The position numbers and the translations under genes were made by a program. The notes under the pieces are model-generated. The model did no database searches. It saw only the letters and a list, made by a program, of their open reading frames with translations, and was not told where the DNA came from. From Flammeovirgaceae bacterium (GTDB taxonomy: Bacteria; Bacteroidota; Bacteroidia; Cytophagales; Cyclobacteriaceae): a DNA stretch of 64,000 bases. The stretch spans positions 1 through 64,000 of the forward strand of contig JAJTGQ010000072.1 in the NCBI GenBank assembly GCA_021299455.1, given 5' to 3'. Shown piece by piece: positions 11,369 to 63,959 of the stretch; position 1 is the first letter of the stretch, and each line of letters opens with the position of its first letter.

Positions 11369-12823
11369 TTAATTTTTTGATGGAGGAACTAATTTGCCGA
11401 ACGCTTTATCCAAATCTACTTTGGCAATCATGGCATCGAACATGGCAGAGTAATAGTTTGTCTGCGCCTGGCGTAAGCTGTTCTCTGCATCTACAACTTC
11501 CAGATTTGAGCCAACGCCTTGTTCGTATTTTATCTTGGTTATACGGGCTACATTGTTGGCCAAATCCATATTCTCATTTTGAGCACTTAGCGATGTAATC
11601 GCATTTTCAAAATTAATCGAAGCCTGCTTGATCTGAAGGTCGATCCCTTGCTTCAAGTTTCTGAAGCCATTTTCGACTTTTTTCAGTGTCAATCTTTCTT
11701 GCTGAATTTTATAATGCTTTTGAAAGCCCCCAAAGAGTGGAAGGTTTAGTGAAACACCAAAAAGAGAATAACCATACCACTTGTCGGGCCCAACCTGACC
11801 GTTATCAGAGATATTTGAGGACGTAGAAAAAACCCCGCCAATATCAGTTGACTGCGTGAAATACCCTAAATTGGCAAAAGCCGACAGAGTAGGAAGTGCG
11901 CTCGCATACTGATTTTTTAAACTAAGTGCTTGAAGACGTTGGTTCGCTTCTAATACCCGATAGTCAGAACGGGTTTTGTAGTCCCAACCTTCTTTATAAC
12001 CCACTAAATCTAAATCTACTTTTGCATCGGCTATCTTTCCTGCCACTTCTAGCGGTTGGTCAAGTGCATAGTTCATTTGAAACTTCAGCAGTTCAACACT
12101 CAAATCCCGAATCCTTAAAAAATTATCTCGCTCGGTTTTTAGATTATTATAGGCCACCCGAATTCGGTCTACATCAATTCCTTCTGCGAATCCGTTTTTA
12201 TTCAGCGCTAACGTGTTTTTCAATAATGAATCGAGTCGCGAAATATTGTTGTCAAACAATTCAGCTCGCTCCTGATTAATCAAAACAGAATAGTAAGCCT
12301 TCGTCACTTGTTCAACTACTTGTTCTTTTGTCTGAATCGCGGTCTTAACGGATAAATCCTTATATGCCTTGGACGCCTGAAGGCCAACGATATAAGAACC
12401 ACTAAAAAGCAATTGGTTTACATTAATACCTGCATCACCGCTACTTTTCAATTGAAAAAAGTTCTGAGAGGCAATCACGTCATTGTCGCCAAGCCCGGGC
12501 AAAAAATTAGGATAGTCTGCGGCAGGCAGATTAGAAAAACCGAATGCCCTTTGCTTTGTTGAAAAAAATCTTCGTAGGTTCTCGTTGTGTTGGACTGAGA
12601 TGCTCCCGTCTACTTGAGGTAGCCCAAGAGCTGCCGTCTCCTTTACTTTGGCCGCTGCGATCTGCTGATCAATTTGGGCATTCTGCACATTCACCGAATT
12701 GATCAACGCATACTCAATACACTGTTCCAATGTAAAGGAAGAAGGTGTTTGTTGCTGTGCTCGTGCACCACCGGCCGTAACAAAGGCGATGGCAATTAAT
12801 AATTGTTTATAAAACTGATTCAT
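11369..12823 (-). CDS. TolC family outer membrane efflux protein
   Basis: FTLEQCIEYALINSVNVQNAQI N-terminus; KIKYEQGVGSNLEVVDAENSLRQAQTNYYSA. Confidence 0.92.
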   Translation of the reverse strand: MNQFYKQLLIAIAFVTAGGARAQQQTPSSFTLEQCIEYALINSVNVQNAQIDQQIAAAKVKETAALGLPQVDGSISVQHNENLRRFFSTKQRAFGFSNLPAADYPNFLPGLGDNDVIASQNFFQLKSSGDAGINVNQLLFSGSYIVGLQASKAYKDLSVKTAIQTKEQVVEQVTKAYYSVLINQERAELFDNNISRLDSLLKNTLALNKNGFAEGIDVDRIRVAYNNLKTERDNFLRIRDLSVELLKFQMNYALDQPLEVAGKIADAKVDLDLVGYKEGWDYKTRSDYRVLEANQRLQALSLKNQYASALPTLSAFANLGYFTQSTDIGGVFSTSSNISDNGQVGPDKWYGYSLFGVSLNLPLFGGFQKHYKIQQERLTLKKVENGFRNLKQGIDLQIKQASINFENAITSLSAQNENMDLANNVARITKIKYEQGVGSNLEVVDAENSLRQAQTNYYSAMFDAMIAKVDLDKAFGKLVPPSKN

Positions 12824-13460
12824 TCTTATAGTTGGTTATGGGTGTTATTGAATTGTATTTGTATCTCTGATAAAGCCTTCTTCCTTTGTCAGTACAAAGG
12901 CCGTAAACGAAGTGATCGAAAAACTGCGACTGTACTTCAACAAGGTTGTATTTTTCTTTTGGGAAATGTTGTTCGTCAAAAGCCGCTTCAATAAGAACTA
13001 ATCGGCTGATGGCTATGACTTCCGGATTGATTTCAGGGCGAAAGTAGCCTTCATCAATACCCTGCTTAAGATTTCTAACGATGGAGCGCATAATGAAATC
13101 ATTCTTGTGGTTAAGCCACAGCGCCCATGACTTTGGGTGAAATTTCTGTAAATCAAAAAGAAGCGATGGGTTCATGTCTTCCATATCGCACCGCAACCGA
13201 ACTGAAATCTTATTGAGCTCATCAATGGCATTTTCAGACGCAGCTGTGATTTCAAGGTATTCACGTTCCTCGCGCGCCATGTGGGTTTGCGACATTACTG
13301 TCACAAGCTCATCTTTGTCGGCAAAATGCTGGTAAAGGGTTTTTTTTGATACCGCCAGTTGTCTCGCGATATCGTCCATGGAAACACTTCGGATTCCATA
13401 CTTCATGAAAAGTGCTTCCGCTCCGGCTAAAATTCTACTTTTTGTCTCTTGTTCTTCCAT
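12807..13460 (-). CDS. TetR/AcrR family transcriptional regulator
   Basis: SRILAGAEALFMKYGIRSVSMDDIARQLAVSKKTLYQHFADKDEL HTH; likely start MEEQETK at 13460; overlaps tolC start by 17 nt. Confidence 0.92.
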   Translation of the reverse strand: MEEQETKSRILAGAEALFMKYGIRSVSMDDIARQLAVSKKTLYQHFADKDELVTVMSQTHMAREEREYLEITAASENAIDELNKISVRLRCDMEDMNPSLLFDLQKFHPKSWALWLNHKNDFIMRSIVRNLKQGIDEGYFRPEINPEVIAISRLVLIEAAFDEQHFPKEKYNLVEVQSQFFDHFVYGLCTDKGRRLYQRYKYNSITPITNYKNESVL

Positions 13461-13586
13461 AATCGGGTGCGAAACTAAGGAAACTTTAGATATTACAAAA
13501 GTTTCCTCGGTTTCCCTCAACGCCATTTGCAGCTCAGGGTTGCAGTTTTACAAACTTTTTTTTGAAGTTTTTTTGAGCTTATTGCA

Positions 13587-57697: not shown

Positions 57698-57711
57698 CTG
57701 ATAACTGTCAC
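57698..57711. promoter_or_regulatory. Candidate CRP/FNR-type operator CTGATAACTGTCAC
   Basis: NTGAT-N4-GTCAN half-site geometry upstream of 57803. Confidence 0.4.
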
Positions 57712-57802
57712 CCCTGAATGCGACTCTTATCATAACGTATTGAATCTATAGAGCGCATCTTTAAAGAAAAAAGAAAGAAACCAAGCAAAACAAATAACAC
57801 TT

Positions 57803-58219
57803 ATGATTTCTGTAACCTCCACCACCGACAAGTATATATTGCAACCTTCCCTGATAGCCAAACATAAAAAAACACTAGATTGGTTATCGACATCGCTTTT
57901 CTGGAAAAAGGAAATGTCATTTTTTCAAAAGTTGCTGGATAACATCGCCCCTAAGCTATCGGCAATACCAGACAAACAAAGGCTTGATCATTTTCAGCAC
58001 TTTATCACTTACTATAATGCGGAATTGATTGACAGTCTTCGCACTAAGTTAAGGCTACACGAAAAAAATTTGGCAGAAATGCTTGAACAAAAAAATGAAC
58101 TGGTCAAAAAGTACTTTGAGGAGCACGATGAACTAATGGGCGCCTTAGAAGGTGCCAACACTCAAATTTTGCTGACAAAAGAAGATTTATTTGATTTTGT
58201 TGGAAAAGCAATGACGTAG
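57803..58219 (+). CDS. Hypothetical helical protein
   Basis: 138 aa, helical, lies ahead of a DUF2267 gene. Confidence 0.65.
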   Translation: MISVTSTTDKYILQPSLIAKHKKTLDWLSTSLFWKKEMSFFQKLLDNIAPKLSAIPDKQRLDHFQHFITYYNAELIDSLRTKLRLHEKNLAEMLEQKNELVKKYFEEHDELMGALEGANTQILLTKEDLFDFVGKAMT

Positions 58220-58269
58220 CTTCCGCTTCGTAGAAAGTATACAATTGGAAATTATTTAATTCTTTTTTT

Positions 58270-58722
58270 ATGGCACTCCACTTTGAAAAACATGCAGCAA
58301 AAGGAAACGAATTTGTAAACCGTCTGGCAGCACACCTGAAGGACGAAGACAATCGCGATCGGGCGGGGCGTGTGCTACGCTGCGTGCTAAGGGTCCTTCG
58401 CGACCGCATTACCCCCGAAGAGTCATTCCAACTGATGGCACAACTGCCAATGGCCATTAAGGCTATCTATGTTGATGGGTGGATGCCGCAACGGCATCAT
58501 GCCAGAATAAAAACCATGCATGAATTTGCCGAACAGGTGATAAAAGAAGACGGCTTATTGGCATGGCGGGATTTCTCCACGGTAGAAGATGCGCTACTAG
58601 CCTGCGAAGCGGTTGTCAAAACGATCGCTGACTATGTTACAGCTGGAGAACTGCATCAGGTTATTGCGGTTTTACCTGAGGATATGAAAGCCTCCTTTCT
58701 TAAATGGGCTCACACCCCGTAG
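58270..58722 (+). CDS. DUF2267-like protein
   Basis: FVNRLAAHLKDEDNRDRAGRVLRCVLRVLRDRITPEESFQLMAQLPMAIKAIYVDGW. Confidence 0.88.
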   Translation: MALHFEKHAAKGNEFVNRLAAHLKDEDNRDRAGRVLRCVLRVLRDRITPEESFQLMAQLPMAIKAIYVDGWMPQRHHARIKTMHEFAEQVIKEDGLLAWRDFSTVEDALLACEAVVKTIADYVTAGELHQVIAVLPEDMKASFLKWAHTP

Positions 58723-58748
58723 GTCATGATATCGATTGAAGTCTGGCT

Positions 58749-59291
58749 TTACTGGTGAGGATGATTCTTTTTCGGAAATTGTCGCAGAGACGCTTCAACC
58801 GCTCGGTTGACATTAGCTTCTGTAAGAGATGGATATAAATCGAAATAGGATACAGCTACTGAACGCCATACCATCTTACCCTGTTGCTTGTCAATCAAAT
58901 CAATGATAAAAGTGCCTTTTAAAAGAAGTACTTCTTCTCTGCTCGTAAACGGAATAAACTGATGGACCTCATCGGGGCGGTGGTAGGCATAACCGGTATC
59001 CGTTTTCATCACCACTTGAACATCCATCAATAAATCCGGGCTGTCAGAATTAAACGCAACACCCTTTCGACCCATCTCAGATTTTATGGCTTTCTGCATA
59101 TAGCTCCTAATCAGCGAATCATTCAGGTAACTGGGGCCCCGGAAGGTGAATTCACAACTTTCCAACCAACAAAAAGTTTGATATTTACTAAAATCATGAT
59201 TTGGGAGTTGCAGGGTGTGAACTTTCACCGCGCAACTTGCCGCCACCAGCAATAGGGCAAGCCAAAAGGGAGCTAATCGTGTCATTTTCAT
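58749..59291 (-). CDS. DUF4136-like lipoprotein
   Basis: Lipobox VAASCAVKV; HDFSKYQTFCWL, KGTFIIDLIDKQQGKMVWRSVAVSY. Confidence 0.82.
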   Translation of the reverse strand: MKMTRLAPFWLALLLVAASCAVKVHTLQLPNHDFSKYQTFCWLESCEFTFRGPSYLNDSLIRSYMQKAIKSEMGRKGVAFNSDSPDLLMDVQVVMKTDTGYAYHRPDEVHQFIPFTSREEVLLLKGTFIIDLIDKQQGKMVWRSVAVSYFDLYPSLTEANVNRAVEASLRQFPKKNHPHQ

Positions 59292-59333
59292 TTTTCAAAT
59301 TTAAGAGCCTTGACTTTCATACTAACTATCATA

Positions 59334-59729
59334 CTACACAAGCCGCCTACTACGCAGAAAACTGCCATACAACATGAGCATAATACCCAGTACAGCAAAC
59401 ACAAGTTGCAATGGGTGCGTATCCGGTAACAAATAAACTTGTATCAACGTCCAGCCCGTAAGAATAGCTCCTTGAAGCAAAATAATAGTTGGATAGGCTT
59501 CTGCTTTAGCTATCGCGAAGCCTGCGGCTACCAAACTCAGCACCCCCACAAGTACAAGAAGTAGTAGTCCCGGCATTTTATAGTCCGGGAACGGAATAGT
59601 CATTTGACTCGGATCACCCAATCCCAGCGAACTTCCGGAAGGATCAGTCAATAACAAAGTGCCTCCGACACACGCACACAAGCCCGTGACTATCAACAAA
59701 ACAATTGCAATTAATCGAGCCCAATACAT
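59334..59729 (-). CDS. Small membrane protein of unknown function
   Basis: 131 aa with four hydrophobic segments. Confidence 0.68.
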   Translation of the reverse strand: MYWARLIAIVLLIVTGLCACVGGTLLLTDPSGSSLGLGDPSQMTIPFPDYKMPGLLLLVLVGVLSLVAAGFAIAKAEAYPTIILLQGAILTGWTLIQVYLLPDTHPLQLVFAVLGIMLMLYGSFLRSRRLV

Positions 59730-59775
59730 CTTGATTTCTTTCCGACAAAGCTATAAAACCAAGATGAATTATTCC

Positions 59776-59789
59776 ATGACAAATGTCCA
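59776..59789. promoter_or_regulatory. Candidate CRP/FNR-type operator ATGACAAATGTCCA
   Basis: Imperfect palindrome 22 bp centre-to-centre from the perfect one. Confidence 0.4.
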
Positions 59790-59797
59790 AAACTAAG

Positions 59798-59811
59798 ATG
59801 ACACGTGTCAT
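59798..59811. promoter_or_regulatory. Perfect 14-bp palindrome ATGACACGTGTCAT, candidate operator in the hsp20 divergent region
   Basis: ATGAC-N4-GTCAT, same architecture as CRP/FNR-family 5-N4-5 sites. Confidence 0.55.
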
Positions 59812-59906
59812 GCAAAAATCAGTCAACTATCATTGCTCCACCTTCTATCATGGTCGTACGTTTGTATCGGATTTCTCCACTAACCAAACAAGAAATCCAA
59901 GAATAT

Positions 59907-60365
59907 ATGAAAACGTTAGCCAAAAGAAACGTAGATGTATTTCCATCACTCGTTTCCGATTTTTTCAGAACCAGCCCATTTATGACTGGATTGTTTGATG
60001 TTGACATGGACTTGCTTCCTGCAAGACTTGGCGTGACAGTGCCTTCAGCTAATTTTACAGAAAACGAAAAAGAGTATACGATTGAATTAGCTGCTCCCGG
60101 CTTAAGTAAAAAAGATTTCACCATAGAGATGGAGAATGACCTGCTAACTATTAGCGCTGAAAAAGAAGAAGAGAAAAATGAAAAGGAAAATGGGTTTACA
60201 AAGAAAGAGTATTCTTTCAACACATTTAGTCGTTCATTTACTCTTCCAGAAAACGCCAAATCAGAGAAGATCGATGCGAAATATGAAAATGGTATTCTCA
60301 CAATCAATGTTCCAAAAAAGGAGTTGACTCCTCAAAAACCAAGAAAAGAAATACCTGTTTCATAG
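59907..60365 (+). CDS. Hsp20/alpha-crystallin family small heat shock protein
   Basis: NFTENEKEYTIELAAPGLSKKDFTIEMENDLLTISAEKEEEK...FTLPENAKSEKIDAKYENGILTINVPKK; start MKTLAKRN preferred. Confidence 0.95.
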   Translation: MKTLAKRNVDVFPSLVSDFFRTSPFMTGLFDVDMDLLPARLGVTVPSANFTENEKEYTIELAAPGLSKKDFTIEMENDLLTISAEKEEEKNEKENGFTKKEYSFNTFSRSFTLPENAKSEKIDAKYENGILTINVPKKELTPQKPRKEIPVS

Positions 60366-60413
60366 TTTAAAGAAGCGCTACTACCTTCATGAAATCGGGT
60401 AAGTGCTAGGATT

Positions 60414-60462
60414 GGCCAGATTTTATTCATTCAAAAATGAATGATTTAAGTCTGGCCTTTTT
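60414..60462 (+). terminator. Rho-independent terminator after hsp20
   Basis: GGCCAGA...TTCATTC/AATGAA...TCTGGCC followed by TTTTT. Confidence 0.88.
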
Positions 60463-60538
60463 GCGTGCGGTCAAAATAAAATAGATATTGCCATTAATCG
60501 TTTTGTGATATCTTGCAACTGCGATATAAAAGCTTACT

Positions 60539-62239
60539 ATGGCGGTTGATCCGAAAGTCGAAAATACCCACCAACTTCTCCAAGTAACGAATAACGAATT
60601 TGAGACACTTTTTAATCATGCAACCATCGGGATACTGATGACTGATAGCAACGGGTTGGTCGTCAATTTCAACAAATATGCCGAACAACTTTTCGGTTAC
60701 CAAAAGGAAGAGGTAATGGGGAAGCCTGTTGAGTTACTTATCCCACACGGAAAAAGGGTGGCACACATAGCCCATCGAACAAACTTCAACGAGCATCCAA
60801 CTAATAGAGTGATGGGTGCTGCCAACGAATTGTTTGCAAAACGAAAAGACGATTCTGTTTTTCCCGTTGAAATCAGTTTGAGTCATTTTAAAAATGACAG
60901 CCAACTATTTGTAATCGCATTCATTATTGATATTGCGGTGCGTAAGCAAAATGAAGATTTACTCAAAGAGCAAAAAAATCAAGTGCTGCAGTTTGCTGAA
61001 CAAACTAAACGCCTCAACGCAGAATTGGAGAAAAAAATAGAAGACCGCACAAAGATGTTGAAAGAGACGTTAGAGGCGTTAGAAAACACGCAGCAAGAAA
61101 CAACCAAAGCGCTCAATTTTCAAAAGGCCATACTCAACCATGCCGGAGCATGTATTATCGCTACCGATACTCATGGAGTCGTCCAGTTGTTCAACAGCAC
61201 CGCGGAAGAATACCTGGGTTACTCCAAGAGCGAAGTTATTGACCAAGTGAACGTTGTTCAATTCCATCTGGCTTCGGAGATTCAGGCAAAAGCAGCTGCC
61301 TTTTCGAGAGAGATAGGTAAAATCGTAACCCCGGACTTCAATGTTCTATCTGCTAAGTCAATGGATGATTTACCCAATGAGCATGAATGGACATATGTCC
61401 GAAAGGACGGCACTACATTTACCGTTTCGCTCAATGTAACAACCTTGCGGGATGCACAAAATAGCATTTCCGGTTTCCTCGGGGTGGCGGTTGATATTTC
61501 TGAGATAAAAAAATATCAAAATAGTCTCCAGGTTGCGTTAGAAAAGGAAAAGCAACTGGGGGATTTAAAATCTCGGTTTGTCACCATGGCTTCGCATGAA
61601 TTCCGAACGCCATTAAGTACCATTCTTTCCTCTGTATCGCTCATCGACAAGTACACAAGTGTCGAAGATTTGGAAAAAAGAGAGAAGCATGTTAAGCGCA
61701 TCAAAAGTGCCGTGGGGAATATGAAAGATATCCTGGAGGACTTTTTATCTCTGGGTAAAATGGAAGAGGGGAAAATACAACTCAATCCTGAACTACTAAC
61801 CCCTGCCGAGCTGCGCGATGAGCTGGAGGCCGTGATACAAGAAATGCAGCGACTGACGAAACCTTCCCAACAGATCACCCACACCTTTACAGTTACTGAA
61901 GATTGTAACGTTGATCGGAAAATGCTGCGGCATATCATGACGAATTTGATTTCAAATGCGATCAAATTTTCTCCGGAAGGCAGTTCCGTTGACGTCAGTT
62001 GTGAAAACAAAAAAAACGAATTGGCCTTCACTATTCAAGATACGGGAATCGGCATATCGGAGGCAGATCAGAAGCACTTATTTGAGCGGTTTTTTAGGGC
62101 TGAAAATGCGTCAAATATACAAGGCACTGGTCTTGGCCTCCACATCATTAGTAGGTACCTGGATCTTGTTAATGGACACATTGAACTTGCCAGCAAATTG
62201 AATAAAGGCAGCACGTTCATCGTACACATTCCGCAATAG
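60539..62239 (+). CDS. PAS-domain sensor histidine kinase
   Basis: Two PAS-like regions; MASHEFRTPLSTILSSVSL H-box; NLISNAIKFSPEGSSV, DTGIGISE, GTGLGLHIISRYLDL. Confidence 0.95.
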   Translation: MAVDPKVENTHQLLQVTNNEFETLFNHATIGILMTDSNGLVVNFNKYAEQLFGYQKEEVMGKPVELLIPHGKRVAHIAHRTNFNEHPTNRVMGAANELFAKRKDDSVFPVEISLSHFKNDSQLFVIAFIIDIAVRKQNEDLLKEQKNQVLQFAEQTKRLNAELEKKIEDRTKMLKETLEALENTQQETTKALNFQKAILNHAGACIIATDTHGVVQLFNSTAEEYLGYSKSEVIDQVNVVQFHLASEIQAKAAAFSREIGKIVTPDFNVLSAKSMDDLPNEHEWTYVRKDGTTFTVSLNVTTLRDAQNSISGFLGVAVDISEIKKYQNSLQVALEKEKQLGDLKSRFVTMASHEFRTPLSTILSSVSLIDKYTSVEDLEKREKHVKRIKSAVGNMKDILEDFLSLGKMEEGKIQLNPELLTPAELRDELEAVIQEMQRLTKPSQQITHTFTVTEDCNVDRKMLRHIMTNLISNAIKFSPEGSSVDVSCENKKNELAFTIQDTGIGISEADQKHLFERFFRAENASNIQGTGLGLHIISRYLDLVNGHIELASKLNKGSTFIVHIPQ

Positions 62240-62313
62240 CCTTCAAAAAAAAGCAGTAGGCTAGTGCACTCGATCAATTGATTTTGTCACTATCTTTGAA
62301 AAAGCTTCATACC

Positions 62314-63372
62314 ATGAGTAAAATATTGATCATTGAAGATAACCTGGAAGTGCGTGAAAACACGGCCGAGATTCTCGAATTGGCACAATACAAAGTGATT
62401 ACAGCCGAGAATGGAAAAACGGGCGTAGAACTAGCCATAAAAGGGAAGCCAGATCTAATCATTTGCGATATTATGATGCCCGTTTTAGACGGATATGGCG
62501 TGTTGCATATGCTCAGCAAAAACCCGGAGACAGCCGCAATTCCCTTCATATTCTTGACGGCAAAGTCTGAAAAATCAGATTATCGAAAAGGGATGGAGCT
62601 AGGTGCGGATGACTATATTACCAAACCTTTTGACGACACACAGTTACTCAACGCAATCGAAATCAGGCTTAAAAAATCGGCACAGCTCAAAAAGTCGTTC
62701 TCGGCAGATGCTGAAGGCATGAACGCATTTATGGAGTCTGCACAACAGCACACAAAGCTCAAGCTTACCGACAAGGCGCGTCAGACCCAATCTTACAAAA
62801 AGAAGTTTATTCTTTACCAGGAGGGACACCGACCGCAGTATCTGTATCTTGTAGTTGCTGGCAAGATTAAGACCTATAAGACGAACGAAGACGGGAAAGA
62901 ATTCATTACTAACATTCATACCCAAGGAGATTTTATAGGATACACGCCCATCCTGGAAGACTCGGCCTACAAAGACAACGCAGAAGTATTGGAAGAAGCT
63001 CAGTTAATGCTGATCCCCCGAGAAGATTTTCTTTCTCTAATTAGCCACGACAACCAATTGGCAAGGCAGTTTATCAAACTTCTAAGCCACAACATTGTCG
63101 AAAATGAGGAAAGGCTGATCAACCTCGCTTACAATTCCGTGCGCAAGCGTGTAGCAATTGGCTTATTAGAAGTACACTCAAAATTCAAGACTGCACCCAA
63201 CAGCAACCCTTCGCTGGAGATTTCCCGAGAAGACCTGGCACAAGTGGTTGGCACGGCCACCGAATCATTGATCCGCACATTGAGTGAGTTTAAGGGTGAT
63301 AAATTAATTGATATTAAAGAAGGGAAAATAAGAATTCTGGAAGAATCCAAACTGAGGAACCTGCTGGGGTAA
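62314..63372 (+). CDS. Receiver domain fused to a CRP/FNR-type cNMP-binding and HTH module
   Basis: ILIIEDNLEVRENTAEIL, DLIICDIMMPVLDGYG, FLTAKSEKSDYRKGMELGADDYITKPFD; then cNMP-fold and SREDLAQVVGTATESLIRTLSEFKGD HTH. Confidence 0.93.
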   Translation: MSKILIIEDNLEVRENTAEILELAQYKVITAENGKTGVELAIKGKPDLIICDIMMPVLDGYGVLHMLSKNPETAAIPFIFLTAKSEKSDYRKGMELGADDYITKPFDDTQLLNAIEIRLKKSAQLKKSFSADAEGMNAFMESAQQHTKLKLTDKARQTQSYKKKFILYQEGHRPQYLYLVVAGKIKTYKTNEDGKEFITNIHTQGDFIGYTPILEDSAYKDNAEVLEEAQLMLIPREDFLSLISHDNQLARQFIKLLSHNIVENEERLINLAYNSVRKRVAIGLLEVHSKFKTAPNSNPSLEISREDLAQVVGTATESLIRTLSEFKGDKLIDIKEGKIRILEESKLRNLLG

Positions 63373-63382
63373 AATTCTTTTT

Positions 63383-63763
63383 CTATTGATTCATCTGTTC
63401 GCCTTCTGAGTTTTGTTGTTCTAACGGCCAATGATCAGTGTGGGAAATTTCTACCCACACGTTTCCGGATTTTCGTAACACCTTCACAATTAAGTTAGCA
63501 TATTGCAAAAAATCCTTTTTGATGCTGGCGATGGATCTGTTTTTACTTACACTAATCGTGAACGGATTTTTCTGAACCAACTGGAAGTCATCGCCCAACT
63601 TATCTTTATGAATATTCCCGTTGATAACCATAGTCTTGAAGAGCTCCATTTTCAAATAGGGATAAAACCGACTAAAGTTCTTTCGTATTTCTCCAATCCT
63701 TATTCCATTTTCAATTAAGACCTCCATTTTTCCATCCGATTCAAGCTTACTACTCGTAACCAT
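63383..63763 (-). CDS. Hypothetical protein
   Basis: 126 aa ORF, convergent with the regulator gene; start may be internal (MEVLIENG). Confidence 0.6.
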   Translation of the reverse strand: MVTSSKLESDGKMEVLIENGIRIGEIRKNFSRFYPYLKMELFKTMVINGNIHKDKLGDDFQLVQKNPFTISVSKNRSIASIKKDFLQYANLIVKVLRKSGNVWVEISHTDHWPLEQQNSEGEQMNQ

Positions 63764-63825
63764 AGATCATCAAATTCATATTCAAAATTATGTTATTCTC
63801 ATATTGTACAGCGCTAACATTTGCC

Positions 63826-63936
63826 GATGAAAAAGCTGATTGTTGTCATTGCTATGATCTTTTCAAGTATCAGTTAGCCTCTGACCCAAAAAAATATTGG
63901 TCAAACTAACTATATCAAATTTGAAGGATTGATCAA
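63826..63936 (+). pseudogene. Possible degenerate small exported-protein gene
   Basis: MKKLIVVIAMIFSSIS signal-like start, then in-frame TAG, then PLTQKNIGQTNYIKFEGLIN* in the same frame. Confidence 0.3.
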
Positions 63937-63945
63937 CTAGACAAA

Positions 63946-63959
63946 ATGATTTTTGTCAT
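63946..63959. promoter_or_regulatory. Candidate CRP/FNR-type operator ATGATTTTTGTCAT
   Basis: ATGAT-N4-GTCAT near the window end. Confidence 0.45.

Follow-up and report, generated by a model that had tools for sequence, protein, structure and literature searches.

The window analysed here is a stretch of 64,000 nucleotides from Flammeovirgaceae bacterium (assembly GCA_021299455.1, contig JAJTGQ010000072.1, positions 1-64,000 of the forward strand). It carries a gene for a 355-residue transcription factor (62305-63369, plus strand) in which Pfam recognises a response-regulator receiver, a cNMP-type domain and a winged helix-turn-helix (HTH), a fusion that we call receiver-CRP. Its probable cognate sensor is the PAS-PAS-HisKA-HATPase kinase (Pfam) encoded at 60539-62239 on the same strand. 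Three neighbouring genes are probable targets: those for an Hsp20 small heat-shock protein (59907-60365, plus strand; PF00011, 8.4e-25), for a predicted small membrane protein of 131 residues without Pfam match (59334-59729, minus strand) and for a 126-residue protein of an unnamed family, also without Pfam match (63383-63763, minus strand). Possible targets are the gene of an uncharacterised 138-residue protein (57803-58219, plus strand), first of a likely operon, and through it the following DUF2267 gene (58270-58722, plus strand; PF10025, 1.5e-25).

The initial annotation listed four sites of the form NTGAY-N4-GTCAN around these genes, and all four were read directly at their positions: CTGATAACTGTCAC at 57698, ATGACAAATGTCCA at 59776, ATGACACGTGTCAT at 59798 and ATGATTTTTGTCAT at 63946. 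The site at 59776 departs from that motif by one mismatch. The motif itself matches the window 7 times with 3.96 expected, and 16 of 100 shuffled sequences reach 7, an unremarkable count that proves nothing on its own. Pairs of palindromes whose starts lie 22 bp apart (at most one mismatch) occur twice in the window and never in 40 Markov-resampled copies, so that the local excess over chance resides in the 22-bp pair and not in the single motif.

Operator, pairing and promoter geometry

The comparative set comprised 80 loci with orthologues of the receiver-CRP gene (52-67% identical) and flanks of up to 10 kb. Open reading frames were called and palindromic dyads (4- and 5-mers, gaps 0-14) were then enumerated in the intergenic DNA. 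Runs of N apart, TGAC-N4-GTCA ranks first with 56 occurrences against 1.28 expected, spread over 38 loci; the 1.29 Mb of coding DNA of the loci hold 8. TGAT-N4-ATCA comes second (90 against 6.5 expected, 50 loci). When the gap of TGAY-Nx-RTCA is varied, gap 4 yields 248 intergenic sites and every other gap 4 to 22, a sole peak matching the two inverted TGA half-sites at fixed spacing of CRP/FNR operators. At least one TGAY-N4-RTCA site is present in 73 of the 80 loci, at a density of 1.69 per kb in intergenic DNA against 0.084 in coding DNA. The enumeration, into which the proposed layout did not enter, thus recovered it and supports the CRP/FNR-type operator of the initial annotation. Its exact consensus gives way to a slightly wider one, TGAY-N4-RTCA as read from these counts, often present as a 22-bp pair.

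Palindrome starts in the 80 loci are spaced by 22 bp in 42 exact pairs, by 23 bp in 5 and by any other distance at most twice; pairs of an exact site and a one-mismatch partner at 22 bp number 64. Over 70 oriented pairs, the start of the Bacteroidota -7 box TAnnTTTG falls exactly at +57 from the pair start, where its bases are T in 53, A in 63, T in 67, T in 67, T in 57 and G in 53. Counted over all sites, the box is found 60 times at +57, 29 times at +35 and 0.38 times on average elsewhere. A flavobacterial start-site map puts it at -12 to -5 (PMC9723704), which centres the palindromes near -41.5 and -63.5. In 55 of the 70 pairs a purine occupies the predicted +1. A position of -41.5 is that of class II activators, known for CRP and FNR, and the geometry assigns these promoters to that class. 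Thinning the set to 43 loci (<70% pairwise regulator identity) preserves the pattern, with 136 sites at gap 4, 24 pairs at spacing 22 and 32 boxes at +57. Tandem pairs fetched genome-wide, and not through the neighbourhood of the regulator, have the box at +57 in 7 cases in one set and 4 in another, any other offset occurring at most once. A literature search on tandem operators yielded nothing. With a defined operator, a fixed pair spacing and a fixed -7 distance, the regulon becomes predictable genome by genome.

The genome of origin (completeness 96.5%) was covered through pattern searches and sequence stretches. TGACNNNNGTCA occurs in it 34 times and its reversed control 35 times, so single-motif counts are uninformative there. 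The composite of one site and a properly spaced -7 box, tolerating one mismatch, matches 33 times, and the reversed pattern 8 times. Two of the 33 matches belong to the window, where they precede genes 59334-59729 and 63383-63763.

The intergenic region of Hsp20 contains the perfect palindrome TGACACGTGTCA (59799-59810), with -7 boxes on both strands. The minus-strand box, TAGCTTTG at +57 (59746-59753), has the exact spacing from the pair start and serves gene 59334-59729; the plus-strand box, TACGTTTG at +58 (59857-59864), is that for Hsp20, whose ATG is at 59907. Proximal sites (-41.5) accompany it at 22 bp on either side, one with a single mismatch for the minus-strand gene (59777-59788) and a degenerate one with two mismatches for Hsp20 (59821-59832, plus strand). 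Judging from this arrangement, palindrome 59799 can probably act as the distal site (-63.5) common to two promoters that point in opposite directions, and its assignment to Hsp20 only was dropped. Given the 22 bp between the starts at 59777 and 59799, ATGACAAATGTCCA is half of a pair with the perfect site and no weak lone site. Gene 63383-63763 is preceded by a single proximal-type palindrome, TGACAAAAATCA (63947-63958, minus strand). Counted from the start of this site, the distance to the -7 box, CAAATTTG (63916-63923, minus strand, one mismatch), is exactly 35 nt. The second pair of the window consists of TGATAACTGTCA (57699-57710) and its one-mismatch partner CGACTCTTATCA (57721-57732), 104 bp upstream of gene 57803. 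Its -7 boxes are weak both ways (CATCTTTA forward at +57, TACTTGTG reverse at +58), which makes the gene driven by this pair uncertain and the DUF2267 operon a possible target. An extra exact TGAY-N4-GTCA match, TGATTGTTGTCA at 63837-63848, was absent from the initial list and has no -7 box at the expected distance.

Regulator, sensor kinase and target genes

Pfam matches of the receiver-CRP to Response_reg (1.6e-28), cNMP_binding (5.2e-20) and HTH_Crp_2 (2.1e-12) are above cut-off, and the latter two correspond to the cNMP-type beta roll and HTH_Crp of the CRP/FNR superfamily. The response-regulator residues (phosphoacceptor Asp, Thr/Ser, Lys and acidic pair) are in place, with D55, the phosphoacceptor, D12 and K107 in 79 of 79 regulators and T or S at T85. 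Recognition helix TESLIRTLSEF, singled out in the initial annotation, is present and its E320 and R324 are invariant in the 79 sequences; I323 occupies the Ser position of the FNR-type E-xx-S-R in 77 of them. None of the 79 has the N-terminal cysteine cluster of FNR, the sole conserved Cys being C54, in the receiver. The Arg-Ser of the cNMP pocket that contacts cyclic AMP (cAMP) is absent, the aligned region reading D/E then N/S/T (79 sequences, aligned by eye). The output part is cNMP_binding plus HTH_Crp_2 and not the LuxR/NarL-type HTH of FixJ. With these defining features lacking, membership in the FixJ, iron-sulfur (Fe-S) FNR and cAMP-CRP families was rejected. Among the solved structures listed, none spans both the receiver and the CRP parts. 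The receiver-CRP is encoded by 198 of 395 Bacteroidia genomes sampled, about half, yet the fusion is apparently unstudied: no work on such a regulator from Bacteroidota turned up in the literature searched. Nearest to it come the flavobacterial start-site map (PMC9723704) and a meta-regulon study of CRP/FNR proteins (PMC8510549), in which the homologues of Flavobacteriales/Saprospiraceae are predicted to sense carbon in a MalR-like way. A receiver-CRP 53% identical to ours is found on a contig labelled Deltaproteobacteria (L088), through mis-binning or horizontal transfer.

The kinase gene immediately precedes the receiver-CRP gene in 72 of 78 loci. The best PDB matches of its first PAS domain, PAS1, are the heme PAS domains of DosP (4e-13) and FixL (4e-12). 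Aligned to DosP without gaps, its H76 matches H77, at the place of the proximal heme His, and 68 of the 76 kinases aligned retain it; PAS1 likely binds heme. PAS2 gives weak partial PDB matches.

The genes next downstream of the sites in the 80 loci are most often the kinase (39), universal stress proteins (USPs; 22), COX1/ccoN (20) and small proteins of the 63383 type (17), followed by a CcoI-like P-type ATPase (12), HemA (9), DoxX (8), Hsp20 (7) and a HemN-like radical SAM protein (4). ScdA/Ric-like targets are also found in relatives. Homologues of the 63383-63763 product are encoded beside the receiver-CRP in 29 of the 80 loci, and their unnamed family, without Pfam match, is tied to the receiver-CRP regulon. 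Site-bearing promoters of the genome of origin precede genes for USPs, PPK2, DoxX, 2-oxoacid:ferredoxin oxidoreductase, a phosphoribosyltransferase, fasciclin, CHAD, an erythromycin-esterase-like protein, YtxH, PPDK, an SQR-like oxidoreductase, an MBL-fold/rhodanese protein, a YgaP-like protein and cytochrome c. The best test promoter of this genome precedes the USP gene at 12642-13478 of stretch L139 (contig C119), where an exact 22-bp pair is combined with a perfect -7 box, TATTTTTG. Stress-type genes near the sites, remarked upon in the initial annotation, are thus found in the window (Hsp20, DUF2267) and, as USP and Hsp20, among the targets in relatives; the target content in relatives and in the genome of origin also agrees with the resemblance to hypoxia/dormancy regulons suggested there.

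By analogy, the system is best read as a FixL/FixJ/FixK-like low-oxygen cascade shortened to two proteins. It would share with the rhizobial cascade a FixL-related PAS kinase with the heme-ligand His, the receiver and CRP/FNR activator steps, cbb3 oxidase and assembly ATPase targets (in relatives) and the TGAT-N4-ATCA core. It differs in joining the receiver and the CRP-type activator in one protein without a LuxR-type FixJ output domain, in its paired operator with fixed 22-bp spacing and in the phylum-specific -7 box. FNR and ANR share the CRP fold, the helix Glu and Arg, N4-spaced TGA half-sites and the class II position, whereas the receiver-CRP lacks the Fe-S cysteines, has Ile for the Ser of FNR VETISR, carries a phosphoreceiver in front and has TGAC as well as TGAT half-sites. 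The likeness to E. coli CRP is confined to the two C-terminal domains, in their fold and their order; D/E-N/S/T replaces the Arg-Ser contact to cAMP, and the operator is TGAY-N4-RTCA instead of TGTGA-N6-TCACA. Compared with the known content of the mycobacterial DosR regulon, the system shares a heme-sensor type kinase, USPs, an Hsp20-type chaperone and phosphoribosyltransferase and erythromycin-esterase-like targets. DosR itself has a NarL/LuxR HTH and an unrelated operator. Bacteroidota would in this way be linked to the FixLJ-K and DosR regulons by function and not by regulator descent.

A candidate low-oxygen switch and its alternatives

The sites are very probably operators of the receiver-CRP, acting with the putative heme-PAS kinase in a low-oxygen/stress switch by class II activation. 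PAS1 of the adjoining kinase, probably with heme bound, would report low O2 (or nitric oxide (NO) or redox state), and the kinase would phosphorylate the receiver. The phosphorylated receiver-CRP would then bind as dimers to two TGAY-N4-RTCA palindromes 22 bp apart on the same DNA face and, from centres at about -41.5/-63.5, activate sigma-A promoters with the TAnnTTTG -7 box, in the manner of class II CRP/FNR proteins. The genes that it would switch on are that of its own kinase, those of universal stress proteins and Hsp20 and energy-reserve/stress genes, and in relatives high-affinity oxidase and heme-supply genes. The operator, its pairing, the promoter geometry, the target families and the co-occurrence with the regulator are established as sequence statistics; we infer direct binding, control by phosphorylation, activation, heme and O2 as the signal. 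The switch offers a testable account of low-oxygen adaptation in aerobic Bacteroidota.

Observations for and against this switch bear on its signal and its reader. As to the signal, the distal Arg of FixL/DosP and DosP M95 are not kept in PAS1, where the aligned residues are N96 and A94, and with these heme-distal residues lost the ligand may not be O2. Moreover, the genome of origin yielded no heme-copper oxidase of the COX1 family (PF00115), and so no cbb3 target, though ccoN ranks among the main targets in relatives; their respiratory branch is missing or unassembled here. There is an appreciable, if less than even, likelihood that the receiver-CRP reads the sites but that its kinase senses something other than oxygen, be it NO, sulfide/redox state or energy stress in general. 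Such signals would agree with the divergent heme pocket, with the SQR-like, MBL-fold/rhodanese and YgaP-like targets of this genome and with the ScdA/Ric-like ones of relatives. The cbb3 oxidase, CcoI-like ATPase, HemA and HemN-like targets of relatives point instead to oxygen supply, and the response of Flavobacterium psychrophilum to oxygen limitation includes induction of cbb3 oxidase and heme genes (PMC9723704).

As to the reader, co-occurrence was counted in 394 Bacteroidia genomes, with stand-alone FNR called at E 1e-50. The exact pair is found in 47 of 57 genomes with both receiver-CRP and FNR, in 81 of 141 with receiver-CRP only (57%), in 42 of 79 with Fe-S-type FNR only (53%) and in 12 of 117 with neither (10%); the reversed pattern turns up a single time among the 394. 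Genomes with and without receiver-CRP differ in having the pair by an odds ratio of 4.8 (Fisher p 1e-13), a comparison that ignores phylogeny, and 43% of receiver-CRP genomes without FNR have no exact pair. In the repeat-rich genome G318, excluded from these counts, the paired pattern matches 109 times and the reversed control 61 times, presumably because of repeats. Stand-alone CRP proteins in genomes without receiver-CRP have the same recognition helix, VGTATE[ST]xIR, most with FNR-like cysteines, and several adjoin identical 22-bp pairs. The helix, and not the receiver, therefore tracks the operator, and the receiver was dropped as the cause of the 22-bp pairing. The same operator is apparently read in other genomes by these Fe-S FNRs, so that there it cannot by itself name its reader. 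They (e.g. L219 P0001) have a recognition helix nearly identical to that of the receiver-CRP, differ from it by a Cx2C...C motif in place of the receiver and presumably sense O2 directly.

It is unlikely that at our locus too the operators are read by a different CRP/FNR protein, for instance a classical Fe-S FNR, with the receiver-CRP gene merely nearby. The frequency of the pair in genomes with receiver-CRP only speaks against this, as does the genome of origin, where no stand-alone Fe-S FNR of this type was found (E 1e-44) and the three other CRP-type proteins whose recognition helices were read (C142, C119 and C81) have different ones. This leaves the receiver-CRP as the only known candidate reader there, and comparative genomics supports the role of reader that the initial annotation gave it, with a PAS kinase beside it. 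The thought that one paired operator and one helix serve two interchangeable sensors across Bacteroidia, an Fe-S FNR that would sense O2 directly and the receiver-CRP driven by a heme-PAS kinase, seems to us evenly balanced. If true, it would be a case of natural sensor swapping on a conserved regulon, and activation by two dimers at 22 bp would define a distinct class of CRP-type promoter.

Repression by the receiver-CRP at these sites is quite improbable: CRP/FNR proteins can repress and pairs are also found near divergent genes, but the sites lie at -41.5/-63.5, at a fixed distance upstream of the -7 box and not over the box or the start. Chance matches, which the plain motif counts in the window and of TGACNNNNGTCA would allow, have next to no probability for the four sites given the dyad enrichment, the gap-4 peak, the 22-bp spacing, the co-occurrence, the window pairs and the fixed -7 distance, and are refuted for the motif in general, though they could account for a single site such as 63837. 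An Rfam search gave no match. Besides Hsp20 and DUF2267, a DUF4136 gene (Pfam) is also present between the sites.

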